This document shows, in pieces, positions 4,627 to 11,207 of a stretch of 50,992 nt of DNA. The notes beneath the pieces are model-generated. The model had not been told where the DNA came from. It made no database searches and saw nothing but the letters and a program-made list of their open reading frames with translations. The translations under genes and the position numbers were made by a program. The DNA comes from Anaerolineales bacterium (lineage in GTDB: Bacteria > Chloroflexota > Anaerolineae > Anaerolineales > Villigracilaceae). Each line of letters opens with the position of its first letter. Position 1 is the stretch's first letter. The DNA is taken from NCBI GenBank assembly GCA_030680795.1, contig JAUXUL010000047.1, positions 1 through 50,992 on the forward strand. Reading direction: 5' to 3'.

Positions 4627-4655
4627 TTGACTTTTCTTCCAAGTTTCGCTATAAT
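4627..4655 (+). promoter_or_regulatory. Sigma-70 type promoter of the ubiquitin-like operon
   Basis: TTGACT (4627-4632) and TATAAT (4650-4655) are separated by exactly 17 nt, close to the housekeeping consensus. The start point would fall around 4661-4663, about 30 nt before the first gene. No other gene lies between this promoter and the E1 gene. Confidence 0.8.
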
Positions 4656-4664
4656 TGTATTAAT

Positions 4665-4675
4665 TGGTCTGACCA
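4665..4675 (+). promoter_or_regulatory. Putative GntR/FadR-type operator at the transcription start
   Basis: The perfect palindrome TGGTC-T-GACCA matches the TNGT-N3-ACNA pattern of FadR/PdhR/LldR-type GntR repressors and is flanked by A/T on both sides. It sits immediately downstream of the -10 box, where a bound repressor would block initiation. The first gene of the operon encodes a GntR-type winged helix, so autoregulation is the obvious hypothesis. Confidence 0.7.
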
Positions 4676-4691
4676 TAATACCACAGGAAAT

Positions 4692-6338
4692 ATGATGAAA
4701 ATTCAACCGATCGTCCACAAAACTTTAGCTGAAGCAGTTGCAGGGAAGTTGACTGCATCACTTCTGGATGGAAGCCTCCAGCCGGGCACTCAATTGCCGC
4801 CGGAGCGTGAATTGATCACCCGCTTTGGCATCAGCCGCACTACGTTACGCGAGGCGCTCAAAACCCTGGAGAAAAACGGGTTGGTAGAGTCACGGAAAAA
4901 TGTAGGATGGTTCGCTCTGCAAGTTGATCAGTCGAATATGACTCAGGCGCGGGAAATGGCCGGGCCGGCACGGCAGGCTGAACGTCTGGCACGAAACGAG
5001 CCTCCAACTGGACCTATTCGCCTGCCCATCGCGTCCGAGAAGCCGATCCACATCCCGAATTTGAGCAAAGATCGTCTCGGTACTTTTGAATTCATCTCGT
5101 GGTGGGATCGTGAGAAAGTCCAAAATGCGAAAGTGATGGTGATTGGTGCGGGGGCGCTGGGAAATGAAGTGATCAAGAACCTCGCGTTGATGGGCATTGG
5201 ACATATCTTTATTGTGGACTTTGACAAGATCGAAGCGGCCAATTTGAGTCGTTCGGTATTGTTTCGTGAGGCCGATAATAATCGCAGCAAAGCTGAGATT
5301 GCGGCTGCGCGGGCAAAATCGATCAACCCGGATGTGCATGTGCAGTATCTCAACGGCGACGTGACAACAAAACTTGGTCTTGGAATTTTCCGCCGCATGG
5401 ATGTGGTGATCGGGTGTCTTGATAACCGTGAAGCGCGACTCGCCGTGAATCGTTTTTGTTATTGGATGAACAAGCCGTGGGTGGATGGCGCGATCCAGGA
5501 ATTGCTTGGGCTCGTGCGTGTCTTTGTGCCGGGGCAGGGAGCCTGTTATGAATGCACACTCACTGAACAAGCCCTGAGAGATTTGTCGCTTCGCTATTCC
5601 TGTCCGTTACTGGCGCGTCAAAATATTTTGCTTGGCAAAGTGCCGACGACTCCAACCATCGCTTCGATCATCGGTGCGATGCAATCACAGGAAGCTTTGA
5701 AATTGATCAATAGTATACCGGTTGAACCCGGCAAAGTGACTCATTTTAACGGGATGGTCAACGAGATGCATACCACCGCATATTCGCCCCGCGAGGACTG
5801 CGAATCACACTGGACTTATGGTGATGTGACTGAACTACCGGCGCGTGCCGAGCGGACGACCCTTGACGACATCCTGCGTATTGCCTGCGCAGACCTTGGC
5901 TTGAATGCAGTGATCGAATTGGATCAGGAATTGGTCACGAAACTGGAGTGCAAGAATTGTCACACTGTGGAAGAAACTTTAAAACCGCTAAGCGAGGTGA
6001 CCTTTGAATCGGGTCATTGCTCGACATGTGGTGAATTACGTGAAGCCAGCATGACACATTTGATCACAGGCGAAGAAACATTTTTGCATCGAACATTGGT
6101 CAGCGTAGGTATGCCGCCGCTTCATATAATCCGCGCTCATAATGGTGTGGAATATCGTTTCTATGAATTAAGCGCTGACCTGCCGGATACTCTTCATTTT
6201 CGGGATTATGAGTCAACTATAAAGATAGAGGATAAAAAACAATCCCGTATTCGCATTAAGGACAAAATCCAGATAAAAGTTGTAAAAGATGCATCTGTTC
6301 TAAAAGTGCGTAGCAGCCGCGTCCGATTACGAGATTAG
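4692..6338 (+). CDS. GntR-type winged helix fused to a ubiquitin-activating E1-like (ThiF/MoeB family) enzyme
   Basis: This 548-residue protein probably adenylates the C-terminus of the ubiquitin-like protein encoded downstream. Residues 10-78 form a FadR-like GntR winged helix (LPPERELITRFGISRTTLREAL). Residues 130-345 are an E1/ThiF Rossmann domain: nucleotide loop GAGALG (152-157), DFD (176-178), NLSR with Arg187, and CLDN (242-245). Candidate zinc ligands are C285/C288 (CYEC) with C370/H373 (CESH). C304 in RYSCPL is a candidate catalytic cysteine, placed roughly where UBA3-like E1s have theirs. A further zinc ribbon has C420/C423 and C443/C446. The last 100 residues are basic and unassigned. 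ATG ATG at 4692 and 4695 are both possible; AGGA at 4685-4688 fits 4695 better. The fusion implies a modifier-activating enzyme that also binds DNA. Confidence 0.88.
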   Translation: MMKIQPIVHKTLAEAVAGKLTASLLDGSLQPGTQLPPERELITRFGISRTTLREALKTLEKNGLVESRKNVGWFALQVDQSNMTQAREMAGPARQAERLARNEPPTGPIRLPIASEKPIHIPNLSKDRLGTFEFISWWDREKVQNAKVMVIGAGALGNEVIKNLALMGIGHIFIVDFDKIEAANLSRSVLFREADNNRSKAEIAAARAKSINPDVHVQYLNGDVTTKLGLGIFRRMDVVIGCLDNREARLAVNRFCYWMNKPWVDGAIQELLGLVRVFVPGQGACYECTLTEQALRDLSLRYSCPLLARQNILLGKVPTTPTIASIIGAMQSQEALKLINSIPVEPGKVTHFNGMVNEMHTTAYSPREDCESHWTYGDVTELPARAERTTLDDILRIACADLGLNAVIELDQELVTKLECKNCHTVEETLKPLSEVTFESGHCSTCGELREASMTHLITGEETFLHRTLVSVGMPPLHIIRAHNGVEYRFYELSADLPDTLHFRDYESTIKIEDKKQSRIRIKDKIQIKVVKDASVLKVRSSRVRLRD

Positions 6339-6359
6339 GCGAGATAAACGGAACTTGAA

Positions 6360-7229
6360 ATGTCCATTCGTACAGTCACGATGAGTAACTCTTATTCTCC
6401 CGCGACCCGTCGCCCCGGTTTTTTTCAAAAACTGGTCGTTACATTGCTGTTTGTCGTCGGTATTGCAGGTTTTATGGCGCTGTTCAATGTTTACCAAAAG
6501 AACCTTTCTTCGTTTTGGATGACGGTCTTCGCGATCCTGAGTATTGGCCTGGCTTCTGGAGCTGCTTCTCGAATAACCTTTTACCAATGGTCAGGATTTA
6601 TACGTTTTTTTGTAATACTACTTGCCTTGCCATTGGGACTGTTTGTATTGGGTGTGCTTACAAACTGGCAGATGGGAATTGGTCCGCTGAATCCCTGGGC
6701 CAAAGGGATCATTCCTCAAGACGAACTGATTCAATTAGGTGGCGCGCTTCTCGTTGCAATCATCAGTCTGGAAGCGTGGTGGAAACCCCCGTTAAAAATT
6801 GAAGATGTGGCAGAAGTGCAGCGTTCATCAAGAAGCCGGGAACAAACGCCGGTAACAGCCGCCATGCAATCGGTCCAACCGAGGCGACAGGCTCACACTC
6901 AGGAAAGTTTGACGTACCTGCCAAAAAGAAATTCGCGCCTGAAGTTATTAAAAGCGAGCAAGGCTCGCAGCCATACGAATCCTGCAATTGATAAATTAAT
7001 TCTCACGCACACAGCGCAGCCAACCCGTTCGAGGCGTAAAAGTTTGTTCAACCGTAAACCAACTTTACAGGTCTCACTTTATGAAGAACATCGATGTCCG
7101 TTCTGCCTGGACGAGGTCAAGCGCAACGACCCGCGCGGTGTGAAGAAATGTGAGGTTTGCAATACATTGCATCATGCAGATTGTTGGGCGGTCACTGGTA
7201 TGTGCCAGGTGCCCCATTTAAATTCATGA
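6360..7229 (+). CDS. Membrane protein with C-terminal RING-like zinc domain (candidate E3)
   Basis: This 289-residue protein has about four membrane segments (roughly residues 21-43, 52-71, 78-101 and 124-140), a basic, Ser/Gln-rich linker, and a cysteine-rich C-terminus. The zinc domain has C246-x2-C249, C264-x2-C267, H271/H272 followed by C275-W, then C282 and H286. The order C-C, C-C, H-C, C-(H) resembles the C4HC3 RINGv/PHD class of treble-clef domains, with a final His instead of Cys. It lies between the E1 and E2 genes, so a membrane-anchored ligase (E3) role is the natural inference. No known substrate is visible. The gene starts 22 nt after the E1 stop and ends 15 nt before the E2 start. 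Confidence 0.72.
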   Translation: MSIRTVTMSNSYSPATRRPGFFQKLVVTLLFVVGIAGFMALFNVYQKNLSSFWMTVFAILSIGLASGAASRITFYQWSGFIRFFVILLALPLGLFVLGVLTNWQMGIGPLNPWAKGIIPQDELIQLGGALLVAIISLEAWWKPPLKIEDVAEVQRSSRSREQTPVTAAMQSVQPRRQAHTQESLTYLPKRNSRLKLLKASKARSHTNPAIDKLILTHTAQPTRSRRKSLFNRKPTLQVSLYEEHRCPFCLDEVKRNDPRGVKKCEVCNTLHHADCWAVTGMCQVPHLNS

Positions 7230-7243
7230 CGGAGGAATTCATT

Positions 7244-8092
7244 ATGCCTGATTTAAGTATCACGATCGTTCTACCCAGCGGCGGTGCGCGTGCCGCCGAA
7301 ATACCAGATGATGTGTCCCTGCGCGAATTGATGCCTGAATTGACATCCCTGTTGGAGCTTCCAACTGTCGGCCCGGATGGAAGACCGATGGGATATCGCC
7401 TGGATAGTAAGGCGCTTGGAAGGGAATTGAAAGAGAGTGAAACGTTGTCTATGGCCGGCGTTCCTGAAAATGATCGCCTGATGCTTACCGCAGATATTAC
7501 GGCAGGAGGAATTATCTCCGTTGCGGGAAGTCCGCGCATGCGGCGCCTGAAAGCCGATTACGAATTGATGCAGGATCTAAATGCCCGCAGTGATCTTATT
7601 TCCTTCAAAGCAGTGGATGCCCGTCCCGGTGTGCCGCCTGAACGATATATCGTCACATTTACCTGCAAGAGTATTTCCAGTGTAGACCGATCAGGCAATC
7701 CGAAATTTTCCAATCACCATCAAGTGGAAATCTATCTCCACAACCAGTATCCGCAACGCTGGCCGGGCATGAAATGGCTGACGCCCATCTGGCATCCGAA
7801 TATTAATCATTTGAATGGCAGTGTCTGTATTGATGCAGCCTGGTGGACAGCCAGCCGTTCGCTGGATCGTCTCATCATTATGTTGGGCGAAATGCTGCAA
7901 TGGAAGAACTTCCATGATGATCCCACGAAGCCGCCATTTCCCTGGGATGCAGAAGCAGCTCGCTGGTCCCGTGAGTACCGTAAGAAACATGCGAATGAGT
8001 TCCCTGTGGATCGTCGCGAATTACTAAGGCCGGAACGAGTGAAGGTTAAACCCATCGAAACGAAAAAGAAACCTGTCATTCGATTGAAATAG
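7244..8092 (+). CDS. E2 ubiquitin-conjugating-like enzyme with N-terminal ubiquitin-like domain
   Basis: This 282-residue fusion has two parts. Residues 1-88 are a YukD/ubiquitin-like beta-grasp domain nearly matching the free modifier encoded next, ending in TAGG (86-89). Residues 100-245 are a UBC fold: the active-site region has HPN (184-186) and Cys195 in the context NGSVCID, the canonical E2 HPN...G-x-hC pattern, followed by W200/W201. The last 35 residues are basic. ATG 7244 is chosen because GGAGG (7231-7235) is correctly spaced; an in-frame ATG at 7226 lies upstream of that site. It would accept the modifier from the E1 as a thioester. The attached modifier-like domain may be an internal regulator, a priming acceptor or a processing substrate. 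Confidence 0.9.
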   Translation: MPDLSITIVLPSGGARAAEIPDDVSLRELMPELTSLLELPTVGPDGRPMGYRLDSKALGRELKESETLSMAGVPENDRLMLTADITAGGIISVAGSPRMRRLKADYELMQDLNARSDLISFKAVDARPGVPPERYIVTFTCKSISSVDRSGNPKFSNHHQVEIYLHNQYPQRWPGMKWLTPIWHPNINHLNGSVCIDAAWWTASRSLDRLIIMLGEMLQWKNFHDDPTKPPFPWDAEAARWSREYRKKHANEFPVDRRELLRPERVKVKPIETKKKPVIRLK

Positions 8093-8150
8093 TCTATTGC
8101 CGTGCGCACCAATCGATATTCGTTCAATACAAAAAGAAAAGGAGAAAACC

Positions 8151-8417
8151 ATGTCTGATATACCTGTTACCCTTGTACTTCCCTCTGGAGGCAGTCGTAA
8201 TGCCGAGGTTCCTGATGATGTAGTCGTGAAGGATTTGATCCCGGAACTGACCACTTCCCTCGAACTGCCCACCACCGGCCCCGATGGACGTCCCATGTCC
8301 TATCGGATAGATAGCAAGGCCCTAGGCCGTGAATTGAAGGAGGAGGAAACCCTCTCTCAAGCCGGTATTCCACAAAACGACCGTTTAATGATGACCGCGG
8401 ACGTTACCGCGGGATAG
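8151..8417 (+). CDS. Free ubiquitin-like modifier (YukD-type beta-grasp)
   Basis: This 88-residue protein shares, by my count, 64 of 88 positions with the N-terminal domain of the preceding E2. Shared blocks include VLPSGG, PELT, LELPT, GPDGRPM, DSKALGRELKE and NDRLM. It ends exactly in ...ADVTAG, so the carboxyl terminus is already a glycine, ready for adenylation without proteolysis, unlike ubiquitin precursors with tails. The start at 8151 follows AAAGGAGA. Similar YukD-like modifiers next to E1, E2 and JAMM genes have been described computationally in bacteria. A long hairpin follows the stop codon. This is the most likely conjugated protein of the operon. Confidence 0.88.
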   Translation: MSDIPVTLVLPSGGSRNAEVPDDVVVKDLIPELTTSLELPTTGPDGRPMSYRIDSKALGRELKEEETLSQAGIPQNDRLMMTADVTAG

Positions 8418-8425
8418 TCCACTTT

Positions 8426-8461
8426 GATTGGGCTGCCCCGGTCAACCGGGGCAGCCCAATC
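8426..8461 (+). repeat. Perfect 17-bp inverted repeat after the ubiquitin-like gene
   Basis: GATTGGGCTGCCCCGGT (8426-8442) is the exact reverse complement of 8445-8461, leaving almost no loop (effectively 16 bp with a TCAA loop). No T-run follows, so it is not a standard terminator. It may protect the 3' end of a shorter transcript and raise the modifier level, or partially stop transcription before the peptidase gene. Confidence 0.75.
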
Positions 8462-8486
8462 AATCCTGCTAAAAATGGAATCATAA

Positions 8487-9134
8487 ATGACAAGCATAGG
8501 TATCCGCGTCTCAGCTCCAAACGACGAAAGGCCCAGGAAAGCCTGTATGCCTCTCGCGCGTTCGAAGCACTGGGAGTCGCCTCATGAGTACAAAGGTGCG
8601 CGGCCACTGGTCAAAGTTTTTCTTTCCCAAGCGGCCTATTGCCGAATCAGCCTGCATTCGACCAGTGAGATGGACGATGAAGTTGGCGGCGCATTGCTTG
8701 GTTTATGGTGTCATGATCGCGATTCCGACGAACAATTTGTTGTGGTGCAACACATGTTGCCCGCCCGTCATACCCGGCAGGGCAGTGTCTATCTTACTTT
8801 TACACAGGATACCATCGTGCAGTTTCATGAAGAATTAGAAACCCACCATAATGGTAAAAGGATTGTCGGCTGGTATCACACACATCCGCGCATGGGTATA
8901 TTTCTATCTCACTATGATACGTGGTTGCATAACAATTTCTTTCCCGAGCCATGGCAAGTGGCGCTGGTAGTGGAGCCGTATACTTCGGTTGCCGGGTTCT
9001 TCATCCGCCGCGACGATGGTGCACTCGATCCCGCACGTTACTTTGGCTTTCGTGAACTAAATGGCAACATGGGAAGAAGCATGGTCGAATGGAATAACCT
9101 TCAAGGCGCTGACGAAGAGAGTGAAGGAGTCTAA
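8487..9134 (+). CDS. JAMM/JAB1-type metallopeptidase (candidate deconjugase)
   Basis: This 215-residue protein carries the full JAMM zinc-peptidase signature: Glu65 in EMDDEVGG, then H131-T-H133-P, S141 and D144 (HxH-x7-S-x2-D). JAMM proteins remove ubiquitin or process its precursors. Since the free modifier here already ends in glycine, removal from targets, or cutting after TAGG in the E2 fusion, seems more likely than maturation. The first 40 residues show no conserved pattern and the start (ATG 8487) is uncertain; Met21 (8547) is an alternative. It follows the modifier gene after the long hairpin and ends 3 nt before the FHA gene. Confidence 0.88.
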   Translation: MTSIGIRVSAPNDERPRKACMPLARSKHWESPHEYKGARPLVKVFLSQAAYCRISLHSTSEMDDEVGGALLGLWCHDRDSDEQFVVVQHMLPARHTRQGSVYLTFTQDTIVQFHEELETHHNGKRIVGWYHTHPRMGIFLSHYDTWLHNNFFPEPWQVALVVEPYTSVAGFFIRRDDGALDPARYFGFRELNGNMGRSMVEWNNLQGADEESEGV

Positions 9135-9137
9135 ATT

Positions 9138-9995
9138 ATGAACAGACGAATGCGTACATATTTTTACGCTGTATTTGGCGCGATCGGCGGGTTGATCGGC
9201 TGGCAGATGAGTAATTTCCTCGGCTTGTCTTTCATTACGAATCTCTATCTAAGTGAAGCGATTGTCGGTGCGCTGATCGGATTTGTGATTGGTTTATGTA
9301 TTGGCGTTACCGAGGGCCTGCTTACACAAAATTTTGTTCAGGCCATCAGGGCCGGTTTGTTCAGCGCTTTGCTCGGTCTCGTTGCTGGAGCCATTGGGCT
9401 GCCGCTGAGCGAGTACCTGTTTCAAGCAGTGGGGGCAGGTTTTCTCGGGCGGGCTTTGGGCTGGGGCGTATTTGGCTTGCTGCTTGGGCTTGCAGAAGGA
9501 GTGGTTGGCAAAAGCCAGGCTTGGAAAGGCATGCTCGGTGGATTGATCGGCGGTGCATTCGGCGGCGTTTTGCTCGAGAGCGCACCCAACTGGCTTGGCA
9601 ATCCTCTCAGCGGAAAAGCCGCGGGCCTCGTTTTGCTGGGCGCTTCGGTCAGCGCATTCATCTCACTGATCGTCGTCCTGCTCTCACGCGCATGGCTCGA
9701 AGTTATTTCCGGCAAACTTAAAGGAACCGAGTTCATTCTCGATAAATTCATGAAAGCAGGCGGCCCGTCCATTGCCATTGGCAGTTCCGCCCTCAAATCT
9801 GAGATCGTTTTACCCGACCCCGATATTGCCCCCCAACATGCCATGCTCAACGGTGATGGAATGCGTTTTTTCCTCAAAGATATGAGCCTGGCAGGTACGT
9901 ATATTAACGGCAAAAAGATCGAACGTACACAATTATCAAACGGACAAATGATCCGCATGGGCAATACCGAGATGATTTACCATGAAAAGAGGTAG
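9138..9995 (+). CDS. Multi-spanning membrane protein with C-terminal FHA domain
   Basis: This 285-residue protein has a Gly-rich hydrophobic part of five to six spans (residues 8-190), with Gly-zipper-like repeats. The C-terminal FHA domain (about 205-283) has SIAIGSS, SEIVLPDPDIAPQHAML and GTYINGKKI. FHA domains read phosphothreonine. The usual Arg after Gly in the first loop is Ser here, and the Ser of SxxH is Ala, so canonical phosphothreonine binding may be weakened. The ATG is 3 nt after the JAMM stop, so the genes are translationally coupled. It probably brings a signalling or scaffold function to the membrane-bound ligase system. The exact role is unknown. Confidence 0.8.
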   Translation: MNRRMRTYFYAVFGAIGGLIGWQMSNFLGLSFITNLYLSEAIVGALIGFVIGLCIGVTEGLLTQNFVQAIRAGLFSALLGLVAGAIGLPLSEYLFQAVGAGFLGRALGWGVFGLLLGLAEGVVGKSQAWKGMLGGLIGGAFGGVLLESAPNWLGNPLSGKAAGLVLLGASVSAFISLIVVLLSRAWLEVISGKLKGTEFILDKFMKAGGPSIAIGSSALKSEIVLPDPDIAPQHAMLNGDGMRFFLKDMSLAGTYINGKKIERTQLSNGQMIRMGNTEMIYHEKR

Positions 9996-9997
9996 CC

Positions 9998-11158
9998 ATG
10001 CAAATAAAATGGATTCGCATCTTACTTAACTTTAGCCTGCTTCTGCTCCTCGTGTTTTTGTCAGCTTCGACAGTTTTCGCGCAGAGCGATACACAGGTCC
10101 GCATTACGCAGGTGGATAATTCTAAATTTCCAACTGTGACAGTTTATGTTTCGGTCACAAATTCAGCCGGTGAGCCTGTTGGTGTGGAGCCTGCCACAAT
10201 TCAAATTTCTGAAAACGGCGAGACAATGCAAATTGTGGACGCCCGAGGCGGAGGTCAGGGAGACGAAGGCGCAGCTGAACCGCTAACGACCATGTTGGTG
10301 ATCGATATATCCGGGAGCATGGATAAAAATAAAAAACTTACAGCCGCAAAGGATGCCGCGAAAGCCTACGTCAATCAAATTCGCGCCGGTGATCAGGCTG
10401 GCTTGATGACATTCGATACAAAGACATATTATATCCAGCAGATCACAACGGATACCGCGGCATTGACCAGCGCCATTGATGGACTCAAAACTGGCGGTGA
10501 TACAGCTATGTTCGACGCTTTGGTCGAGGCGGAAAAAGCCTTGAATGCTGTCCCTGGCCGCAAGGCGATCATTGTCCTGGCTGATGGTTTGGATAACCAA
10601 AGTCAGAATACGGTTGATACTGTGATCGAGCAGATAGGCCCAAGCGGCCTCACGATTTCAACAGTCGGCTTTGGTGACGCCAGCACTGCTTCACAGTCCG
10701 GGCTTGATGAGGGTGCGTTGAAATCCCTGGCTGAAAGATCTGGCGGTCTTTATAGCTTTGCCGCAGACTCTGAATCCCTGAGTGCGCTCTATCAGCAGTT
10801 GGGTCGTACCTTGCAAAGTGAATATGCAATTACCTATGTTTCCCCTTCAACTCTGCGAGATGGCATTAATCGTAACTTGACTGTGTCGCTTTCAGGTGTA
10901 GGTGCAACTACTGAAACGAACTACAATCCCGGCGGTGTTTTGCCCGAAGTCACAAGTACGTCGTGGACTCTGTTTGGGCTGATCCTGGCTGGATTACTGC
11001 TCTTTCTATTTGTCCCGCTTTTGATCGGTCGCGGCGCAGGGTTGTTCAGTGGCATGAAGAAAAAAGGGAAGGTTAAAATGCTAAATACAGCGAACGCGGC
11101 GAGTAACAGAAGTCCAGGCGGAAGCGCTGGTAAGAAACCGCGCATAAAGCTCAAGTAG
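9998..11158 (+). CDS. Membrane-anchored von Willebrand factor A domain protein
   Basis: This 386-residue protein has an N-terminal signal sequence (residues 1-28, hydrophobic core LLNFSLLLLLVFL, likely cleavage after VFA). Residues 97-275 form a VWA domain with an intact MIDAS metal site: DxSxS at D103-S105-S107, T169 and D196. A membrane segment at about 323-343 is followed by a short basic cytoplasmic tail (KKKGKVK...PRIKLK). The bulk is therefore outside the membrane. It starts 2 nt after the FHA gene and closes the operon before a strong terminator. VWA proteins bind protein partners through the metal site; here it may be the external sensor or scaffold of the membrane complex. Confidence 0.85.
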   Translation: MQIKWIRILLNFSLLLLLVFLSASTVFAQSDTQVRITQVDNSKFPTVTVYVSVTNSAGEPVGVEPATIQISENGETMQIVDARGGGQGDEGAAEPLTTMLVIDISGSMDKNKKLTAAKDAAKAYVNQIRAGDQAGLMTFDTKTYYIQQITTDTAALTSAIDGLKTGGDTAMFDALVEAEKALNAVPGRKAIIVLADGLDNQSQNTVDTVIEQIGPSGLTISTVGFGDASTASQSGLDEGALKSLAERSGGLYSFAADSESLSALYQQLGRTLQSEYAITYVSPSTLRDGINRNLTVSLSGVGATTETNYNPGGVLPEVTSTSWTLFGLILAGLLLFLFVPLLIGRGAGLFSGMKKKGKVKMLNTANAASNRSPGGSAGKKPRIKLK

Positions 11159-11169
11159 ATATTCCAAAC

Positions 11170-11207
11170 AAAAAAGGGGCTGCCCTCTTTTTGGACAGCC
11201 CTTTTTT
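11170..11207. terminator. Bidirectional terminator between the VWA gene and lexA
   Basis: The arm AAAAAAGGGGCTGCC pairs with GGACAGCCCTTTTTT around a short loop, with A- and T-runs on both sides. It can end the ubiquitin-like operon on the plus strand and lexA on the minus strand. Confidence 0.85.

Follow-up and report, generated by a model that had tools for sequence, protein, structure and literature searches.

Results

Gene Content and Order of the Cassette

The stretch of DNA analysed here (the window, 50,992 nucleotides of contig JAUXUL010000047.1 from the Anaerolineales bacterium assembly GCA_030680795.1) contains a seven-gene cassette that is predicted to encode a ubiquitin-like conjugation system. 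The genes lie on the + strand at positions 4692-11158 and encode, in order, an E1, a RING-like membrane protein, an E2, a free ubiquitin-like modifier (Ubl), a JAMM peptidase, an FHA protein, and a VWA protein. All features described below are on this strand unless stated otherwise. An initial annotation of the window had placed these seven genes in one unit, which is where they are found, and the identities that it gave to the E1, modifier, E2, JAMM, FHA, and VWA proteins agree with Pfam matches above cut-off to ThiF, YukD, UQ_con, JAB, FHA, and VWA. It named the parts rightly but overlooked the fusion of the E1 to a GntR domain with its operator, the fusion of a Ubl to the E2, and a C-terminal tail shared among the proteins.

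A sigma-70-type promoter, TTGACT-17-TATAAT, precedes the operon (4627..4655). It has 11 of 12 matches and is the best of five found in the window, a total that is no higher than in shuffled sequence (mean 7.2). A hairpin between the convergent VWA and lexA genes (11177..11201, reported on the - strand) is likely a shared terminator; the terminator scan of the window also gave a total no higher than shuffles (9 found versus 8.0).

The seven genes form a real, conserved block that travels together. The comparison began with 82 sequences, namely L031-L111 and the window. Four were left out, L043 and L111 as one frameshifted locus and L044 and L045 as a distant type, and a further eight were dropped for identical E2 ends, which leaves 70 non-redundant loci. 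All seven genes occur on one strand and in one order in 60 of these. Fifty-nine were scored by script, including some loci whose terminal gene is truncated where the contig ends; the other is L088, which has all seven genes and whose order looked different only because of stop-to-stop open reading frame (ORF) limits. Contig ends remove genes in nine loci. A single locus, L102, has no FHA or VWA gene beside JAB, which is a true loss. According to the initial annotation, the idea of a single system would fall if the FHA, VWA, and RING-like genes did not travel with the E1 and E2 genes; they co-occur in 60 of the 61 loci that have no whole gene lost to a contig end. Two loci, L085 and L097, have two JAB ORFs each. 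In each of five pairs computed, every one of the seven genes has a nonsynonymous rate (dN) below its synonymous rate (dS); 2 of the 35 dS values are saturated. The RING-like and VWA genes have the highest dN.

In the excluded frameshifted locus (L043/L111, from genome G017), the E2, FHA, and VWA genes contain several frame breaks. The locus comes from a two-contig assembly with 78% completeness, and the breaks may stem from errors in sequencing, not from decay of the genes.

The E1 Is a GntR-ThiF Fusion

The E1 (4692..6338) consists of a GntR winged helix (amino acids 12-74; 4725-4913), a ThiF adenylation domain (amino acids 133-370; 5088-5801; Pfam ThiF, 1.8e-56), a cysteine-rich C-terminal region, and a tail, as delimited by Pfam, profile searches, and alignment. 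It is therefore a GntR-ThiF fusion by sequence, which corrects its plain label as E1-like. Both domains are present in all 64 E1s scanned, including that of L147, an outgroup from another class; five contig-cut E1s were left out.

The nearest solved relative of the GntR domain is PdhR (2.4e-12), and FadR is also matched. Three arginines, R39, R49, and R53, are invariant and align by eye with FadR R35, R45, and R49, which we take to be DNA contacts. In Pfam and profile scans the E1 has no match to an FCD or UTRA effector domain, and ThiF occupies its place. The cassette E1 thus has the same winged helix as the FadR/PdhR-type regulators but an E1 domain where these have an effector domain. To our knowledge, other E1 enzymes are enzymes only.

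The ThiF domain is closest among solved structures to the UBA7/UBA1 adenylation domains (2e-31). G152, G154-ALGN, and Cys304 are invariant in the 64 E1s, so that the protein has the nucleotide motif and the candidate catalytic cysteine (Cys304, 5601-5603) of an E1 from a ubiquitin-like conjugation system. The C-terminal region contains conserved C420, C423, C443, and C446 and may bind zinc, and the tail holds repeated I/V-R/K-L/I motifs. Separate ORFs encode the E1 and E2 in the window, as in the other loci that have both genes, and the two do not form the single E1-E2 chain of cyclic-oligonucleotide-based antiphage signalling systems (CBASS).

A Putative Palindromic Operator Lies Upstream of the E1

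A palindrome, TGGTCTGACCA, is located directly 3' of the -10 box (4665..4675) and is conserved in the E1 leaders. It is presumably an operator of the FadR/PdhR type. The strict form, TGGTCNGACCA, occurs within 150 bp upstream of the E1 in 51 of 64 loci, and a looser form, TNGTN3ACNA, in 59 of 64. There are 53 copies of the strict form in total in the 1,122,992 bases of the E1-holding loci. By eye, four of the five loci without the loose form show one- or two-base variants in the same place, and in the fifth, L101, the assigned E1 start cuts the site off. In L147, the operator is also found upstream of the GntR-E1.

By sequence, then, the E1 combines a winged helix with a cognate palindrome at its own promoter, as in regulators of the GntR/FadR type. 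A protein bound to the operator, immediately 3' of the -10 box, would be expected to block transcription. The E1 is probably the transcriptional regulator, and the repressor, of its own operon.

The E2, the Free Modifier, and the JAMM Peptidase

The E2 (7244..8092) has a Ubl domain at its N-terminus (about amino acids 1-88), with YukD and UQ_con matches both above the Pfam cut-offs. What had been labelled a plain E2 is, from these matches, a Ubl-E2 fusion. Alignment places the catalytic cysteine at Cys195 (7826-7828) when the E2 is counted from the ATG at 7244, and this residue is invariant in the 43 sequences aligned. HPNI is present in 70 of 70 E2s and the wider string VC[IVL]DAAWW in 67 of 70. 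A profile of the E2 matches solved E2 structures (best 4.6e-9). In the AlphaFold2 (AF2) model, the E2 domain matches E2s of the Ubc2b/UbcH5 type, and the best fold match of the N-terminal Ubl is Caldiarchaeum ubiquitin. The E2 thus shows the fold, HPN motif, and catalytic cysteine expected in a conjugation system. In 68 of 70 loci, the fused Ubl contains D[IVL]TAG with A, G, or S as the next residue.

The free YukD-type modifier (8151..8417; Pfam YukD, 5.3e-10) ends in ...TADVTAG, and TAG is terminal in 67 of 67 loci. It has the C-terminal glycine and the predicted ubiquitin fold of a modifier, the fold being tested on the close E2-fused copy. The JAMM/JAB peptidase (8487..9134; Pfam JAB above cut-off) contains the motif HTHPRMGIFLSHYD at 8877-8918. 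The pattern HxH-x7-S-x2-D is complete in the window and intact in 66 of 67 loci, as expected of a deconjugase. The HPN motif, Cys195, the terminal glycine, and the full JAMM motif had all been read correctly in the initial annotation.

The E1, E2, and VWA Proteins Share a C-Terminal Tail

In complete protein ends, the motif [IV][KRH][LIVF][KRHN] occurs within the last eight residues of 68 of 70 E2s, 50 of 60 VWA proteins, and 31 of 68 E1s. It occurs there in none of 624 flank ORFs of at least 120 amino acids. The E1 tails repeat the motif, with 2.1 copies in the last 60 residues versus 0.23 in shuffles (counted with a slightly wider pattern). By position counts, the E2 consensus is K-P-[RK]-I-[RK]-L-K, and the VWA protein has a close form; across the three proteins the motif is roughly KPRIKLK. 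In the window, the E2 ends in KPVIRLK (8069-8089) and the VWA protein in KPRIKLK (11135-11155).

In eight cassette genomes, the strict tail pattern has 25 matches versus 35 for a control pattern, and 19 of the 25, checked on both strands, end in a stop. The tail-ending frames of at least 100 amino acids are the E2s of G044 and G057, the VWA protein of the window, two permeases that appear DppB-like by eye (from G000 and G009), and one doubtful 128-amino-acid frame. The tail is rare, though not strictly unique to the cassette.

Two other operon types differ in these features. The operons of L148 and L149 have an E1 without GntR, no tails, no FHA, and no VWA. L147 has all seven genes, the GntR domain, the operator, and the tails, and its E2 has no fused Ubl. 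The tails therefore go with the membrane cassette, independently of the Ubl-E2 fusion. The shared motif is probably a docking tail.

The simpler L148 and L149 operons (from G200 and G424) consist of the E1, a Ubl ending in TAG, an E2, and two JABs; L149 also has a soluble RING-like protein. This type looks like a core from which the cassette could be built.

The RING-Like, FHA, and VWA Membrane Proteins

The second gene (6360..7229) encodes a putative membrane protein, with spans read from the sequence, and a C-terminal RING-like domain of the Prok-RING_1 family whose ligands run from Cys246 to His286 (7095-7217). The Prok-RING_1 match of the window protein scores 24.6 bits, below the cut-off of 29.1. 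The family is matched at E <= 0.01 by all 45 of the RING-like proteins scanned (68 in the set), and the eight zinc ligands are kept in 68 of 68. An AF2 model built from 65 sequences has a predicted local distance difference test score (pLDDT) of 88, with a core of about 94-97.

The FHA protein (9138..9995; Pfam FHA) is predicted from its sequence to be a multi-pass membrane protein with a cytosolic FHA domain (9699-9977). FHA domains contact phosphothreonine through GR, SRxH, and NGT motifs, and an alignment with FhaA indicates that the usual contact motifs are replaced here. The pattern [IVL]GR..L[KR] occurs in none of 65 sequences, with GSS instead in 50 of 65. SR.H is found in one of 65 and PQH in 61 of 65, and LAGT, LSGT, and similar forms replace NGT. 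Because all three motifs are replaced, phospho-dependence is unlikely, and phospho-sensing by this domain is doubtful.

The VWA protein (9998..11158; Pfam VWA) is also above the cut-off for TIGR03436. Its sequence suggests a signal peptide, a metal ion-dependent adhesion site (MIDAS), a transmembrane segment, and a cytosolic tail. The start of the MIDAS, D.SGSM, is present in 60 of 62 sequences.

Distribution and Genomic Site

Relatives of the E2 are present in 16 of 61 near genomes, counting that of the window (3.45 Mb in 54 contigs). Two of the 16, G015 and G036, have weak E2 matches and a different operon type. In G015 (L044, 79-5572), this distant operon encodes an E1, two E2-like proteins, two JABs, and a small soluble RING-like protein; in G036 (L045), there is a fragment with an E2 and two JABs. 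One scan of a contig collection (200 stretches matched, 69 relatives) gave 66 loci with E2 relatives. Across the phylum, 19 of 400 genomes have E2 relatives, of which 10 are strong and of the cassette type, two are of the L148/L149 type, and seven are weak. The relatives found belong to Chloroflexota/Anaerolineae. Pelolinea submarina strain MO-CFX1 carries the cassette (L078), so a named strain is available for work. No cassette relative is among 22 pattern matches in viral contigs. Among plasmids, 375 records have distant E1s, all of which cover less than 80% of the query. The best plasmid match, L208 (Crinalium epipsammum pCRI9333.03, 7001-10478), contains ThiF, E2, and Mov34 genes and two tandem small proteins that are Ubl-like by eye, with one plasmid replication gene and one conjugative transfer gene alongside.

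In many loci the cassette has rplKAJL on one side and lexA-corA on the other; elsewhere, the sequence covered includes neither of these neighbours. Among cassette-free genomes of the same genus that have the lexA locus, rplL adjoins lexA in 20 of 23, with 64-589 bp between. At this place between rplL and lexA, the cassette is gained and lost as one block. No cassette remnants are found at the empty sites beyond short hairpin-like matches in two of them, which leaves loss and gain indistinguishable there. In a near sister of the window's genome (G001; L209, 880-7454), six zinc-ribbon-like ORFs lie in a row upstream of lexA, in the position that the cassette has in sisters, and most of them have similar cysteine-rich starts.

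In a LexA tree with 25 cassette-positive and 23 cassette-negative rows, which is a quick tree with some long branches, cassette presence changes 10 times, and at least seven of these changes are forced by starred branches. Presence is still more clustered than in shuffles (10 changes versus a mean of 16). Between the window and L034, the flanks have identities of 0.91-0.98 and the cassette genes 0.67-0.87. Between the window and L047, identities are 0.77-0.90 for the flanks, 0.90-0.91 for E1 and E2, and 0.66-0.85 for JAB, FHA, and VWA. Over 19 loci, cassette identity correlates with that of the two flanks at 0.66 and 0.65, and the flanks correlate with one another at 0.72. These patterns are consistent with descent that was largely vertical, with repeated losses and possibly a degree of exchange at a single site. 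They also fit an accessory, conditionally useful function.

Discussion

Relation to Known Systems

Burroughs, Iyer, and Aravind reportedly defined Prok-RING_1 in 2011 and predicted bacterial E1-E2-RING-JAB-YukD operons, which are said to have the same enzymatic core, RING family, and YukD-type modifier as the cassette. Relative to those reported operons, the cassette has a GntR-E1 with a conserved operator, a Ubl-E2 fusion, and shared tails. The initial annotation considered the biology of the system to be undescribed. This is at least partly too broad, given those reported predictions. Among the titles listed in literature searches, none is on a GntR-ThiF E1 and none on conjugation in Anaerolineae. 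To a conjugation core that had reportedly been predicted, the cassette adds a shared C-terminal peptide and an E1 that very probably regulates its own transcription.

The Bub pathway has a composition like that of the cassette core. The cassette adds the membrane RING-like, FHA, and VWA proteins to what the Bil and Bub pathways contain. The Bil pathway likewise has Ubl, E2, JAB, and E1 in one operon, and, in the portions of the sources available, the regulators of Bil/Bub-type operons are separate genes (CapW, CapH with CapP, CapK with CapS), whereas the DNA-binding domain of the cassette is on the E1 itself (PMC11354881, PMC13373217). Among the bacterial E1/E2/JAB/Ubl operons of Iyer et al. 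2006, the accessible text places YukD only in the context of ESAT-6 export and mentions no FHA (PMC1779556). In the archaeon Caldiarchaeum subterraneum, genes for E1, E2, a RING-like protein, and ubiquitin form a compact operon with JAMM alongside, which is like the cassette, and the E1/E2/RING/Rpn11 cascade of this archaeon has been shown biochemically (PMC5654768). The available part of that paper mentions no GntR, FHA, or VWA, and the Caldiarchaeum modifier is a di-glycine precursor with a tail, whereas the cassette Ubl is mature with a single glycine.

Proposed Mechanism

We consider it likely that the seven genes encode a ubiquitin-like conjugation system that is complete in itself and anchored at the inner membrane, with an autorepressing E1 and docking tails. 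The E1 would adenylate the C-terminal glycine of the free YukD-type Ubl, which would then be transferred to Cys195 of the E2. The RING-like protein, as an E3, would bring the charged E2 to membrane targets, and the JAMM peptidase would take the Ubl off. The VWA protein, with its MIDAS outside and its tail inside, and the membrane FHA protein, which probably binds without phosphothreonine, may couple the machine to an external event or partner. The same C-terminal peptide is proposed to dock the E1, the E2, and the VWA tail on one cassette partner, for which our best guess is the RING-like protein or the Ubl. As a GntR-type autorepressor, the E1 would bind TGGTCTGACCA beside its own promoter, so that its abundance, and possibly its Ubl-charged state, would set expression of the operon. 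More tentatively, Ubl loading or the thioester state of the E1 could alter its DNA binding and so read modifier consumption at the promoter, while a peptide code assembles the E1, the E2, and an extracellularly exposed VWA protein. A proteasome link was rejected, since none of the 61 near genomes matched a proteasome model that also catches HslV.

Several observations weigh against parts of this proposal. The RING-like fold is matched weakly: the best Foldseek hits are PHD fingers (E 0.04; none below 0.001), and the best VIA match is to RING E3s (Z 4.3, 1.8 Å over 44 residues) with PHD tied. The AF2 model of the E2 has a pLDDT of 74 overall and below 50 at residues 188-193 and 195-199, near the active site. 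The Ubl has a single terminal glycine and not the GlyGly of ubiquitin. An unrelated permease in the window's genome, DppB-like by eye, also ends in PRIRLK. In L102 the E2 tail is retained although FHA and VWA are missing, on which ground the FHA protein was rejected as an obligate tail receptor. The E2 tail is unstructured and undocked in the AF2 model, which gives no support to docking on the protein's own Ubl. Exact TGGTCWGACCA is present 41 times in 14 genomes that have the cassette and 54 times in 14 that do not, and one cassette genome, G216, holds no exact copy. The site is no commoner in cassette genomes, so other regulators may share it, and a wider regulon was rejected on the same counts.

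The earlier picture of a membrane-localised protein-tagging machine fits the gene anatomy. Within it, E3 activity of the RING-like protein is an inference and phospho-sensing by the FHA domain is doubtful. The anchored ligase remains a candidate: the RING-like domain is, on the model, a cross-brace zinc domain that retains all its ligands, and its weak matches are shared between RING and PHD folds.

Alternative Explanations

An anti-phage defence system of the Bil/Bub/CBASS kind is an unlikely alternative. The E1 and JAB match the PADLOC E1-E2 and JAB models, some cassette identities conflict with those of the flanks, and the 10 changes on the LexA tree, at least seven of them forced, indicate a block repeatedly lost or regained at one site. 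That site is nevertheless chromosomal, between ribosomal genes and lexA in many loci, and the block contains no recognisable effector. The E2, Ubl, RING-like, FHA, and VWA proteins have no PADLOC match at E <= 0.01, and no cassette relative was confirmed in viral contigs.

It is rather improbable that the tail is an acceptor tag whose lysines receive the Ubl, with autoconjugation of the E1 and E2 and the VWA protein as a dedicated substrate. Of the E2s, 69 of 70 have a lysine among their final six residues, as do 59 of 62 VWA ORFs (a few VWA ends are contig-cut), and the Caldiarchaeum E2 is described as auto-modified on a C-terminal lysine (PMC5654768). Against this, the E1 copies often have R or H, just 36 of 68 E1s have a lysine that close to the end, and the hydrophobic tail positions are conserved about as well as the lysines.

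We give little credence to a third explanation, in which the GntR domain regulates another promoter and TGGTCNGACCA belongs to an unlinked FadR/PdhR-like regulator. The similar frequency of the operator in cassette-free genomes is what this would predict. It is hard to square with a site present in 51 of 64 E1 leaders and in only 53 copies in all 1.12 Mb, with the three genomes (G044, G051, and G057) in which the cassette copy is the sole exact TGGTCWGACCA, and with the same pairing of GntR-E1 and site in another class.

FHA domains occur in type VII secretion systems. YukD domains do as well (PMC1779556), but a type VII-secretion-like module with structural YukD domains and nothing conjugated is very improbable and the link was rejected, as YukC/EssB is matched in none of the 61 genomes, EssC/FtsK and WXG100 are absent from the seven genes, the E1, E2, and JAMM motifs are intact, and the C-terminal glycine is invariant.

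Implications

Such a compact E1-E2-(E3)-JAMM system at the membrane, present in bacteria with no proteasome match, bears on the role that tagging of this kind had before degradation. If the autorepressor reading of the E1 is true, a conserved fusion of an E1 to a repressor that has its own operator would tie conjugation directly to transcription.

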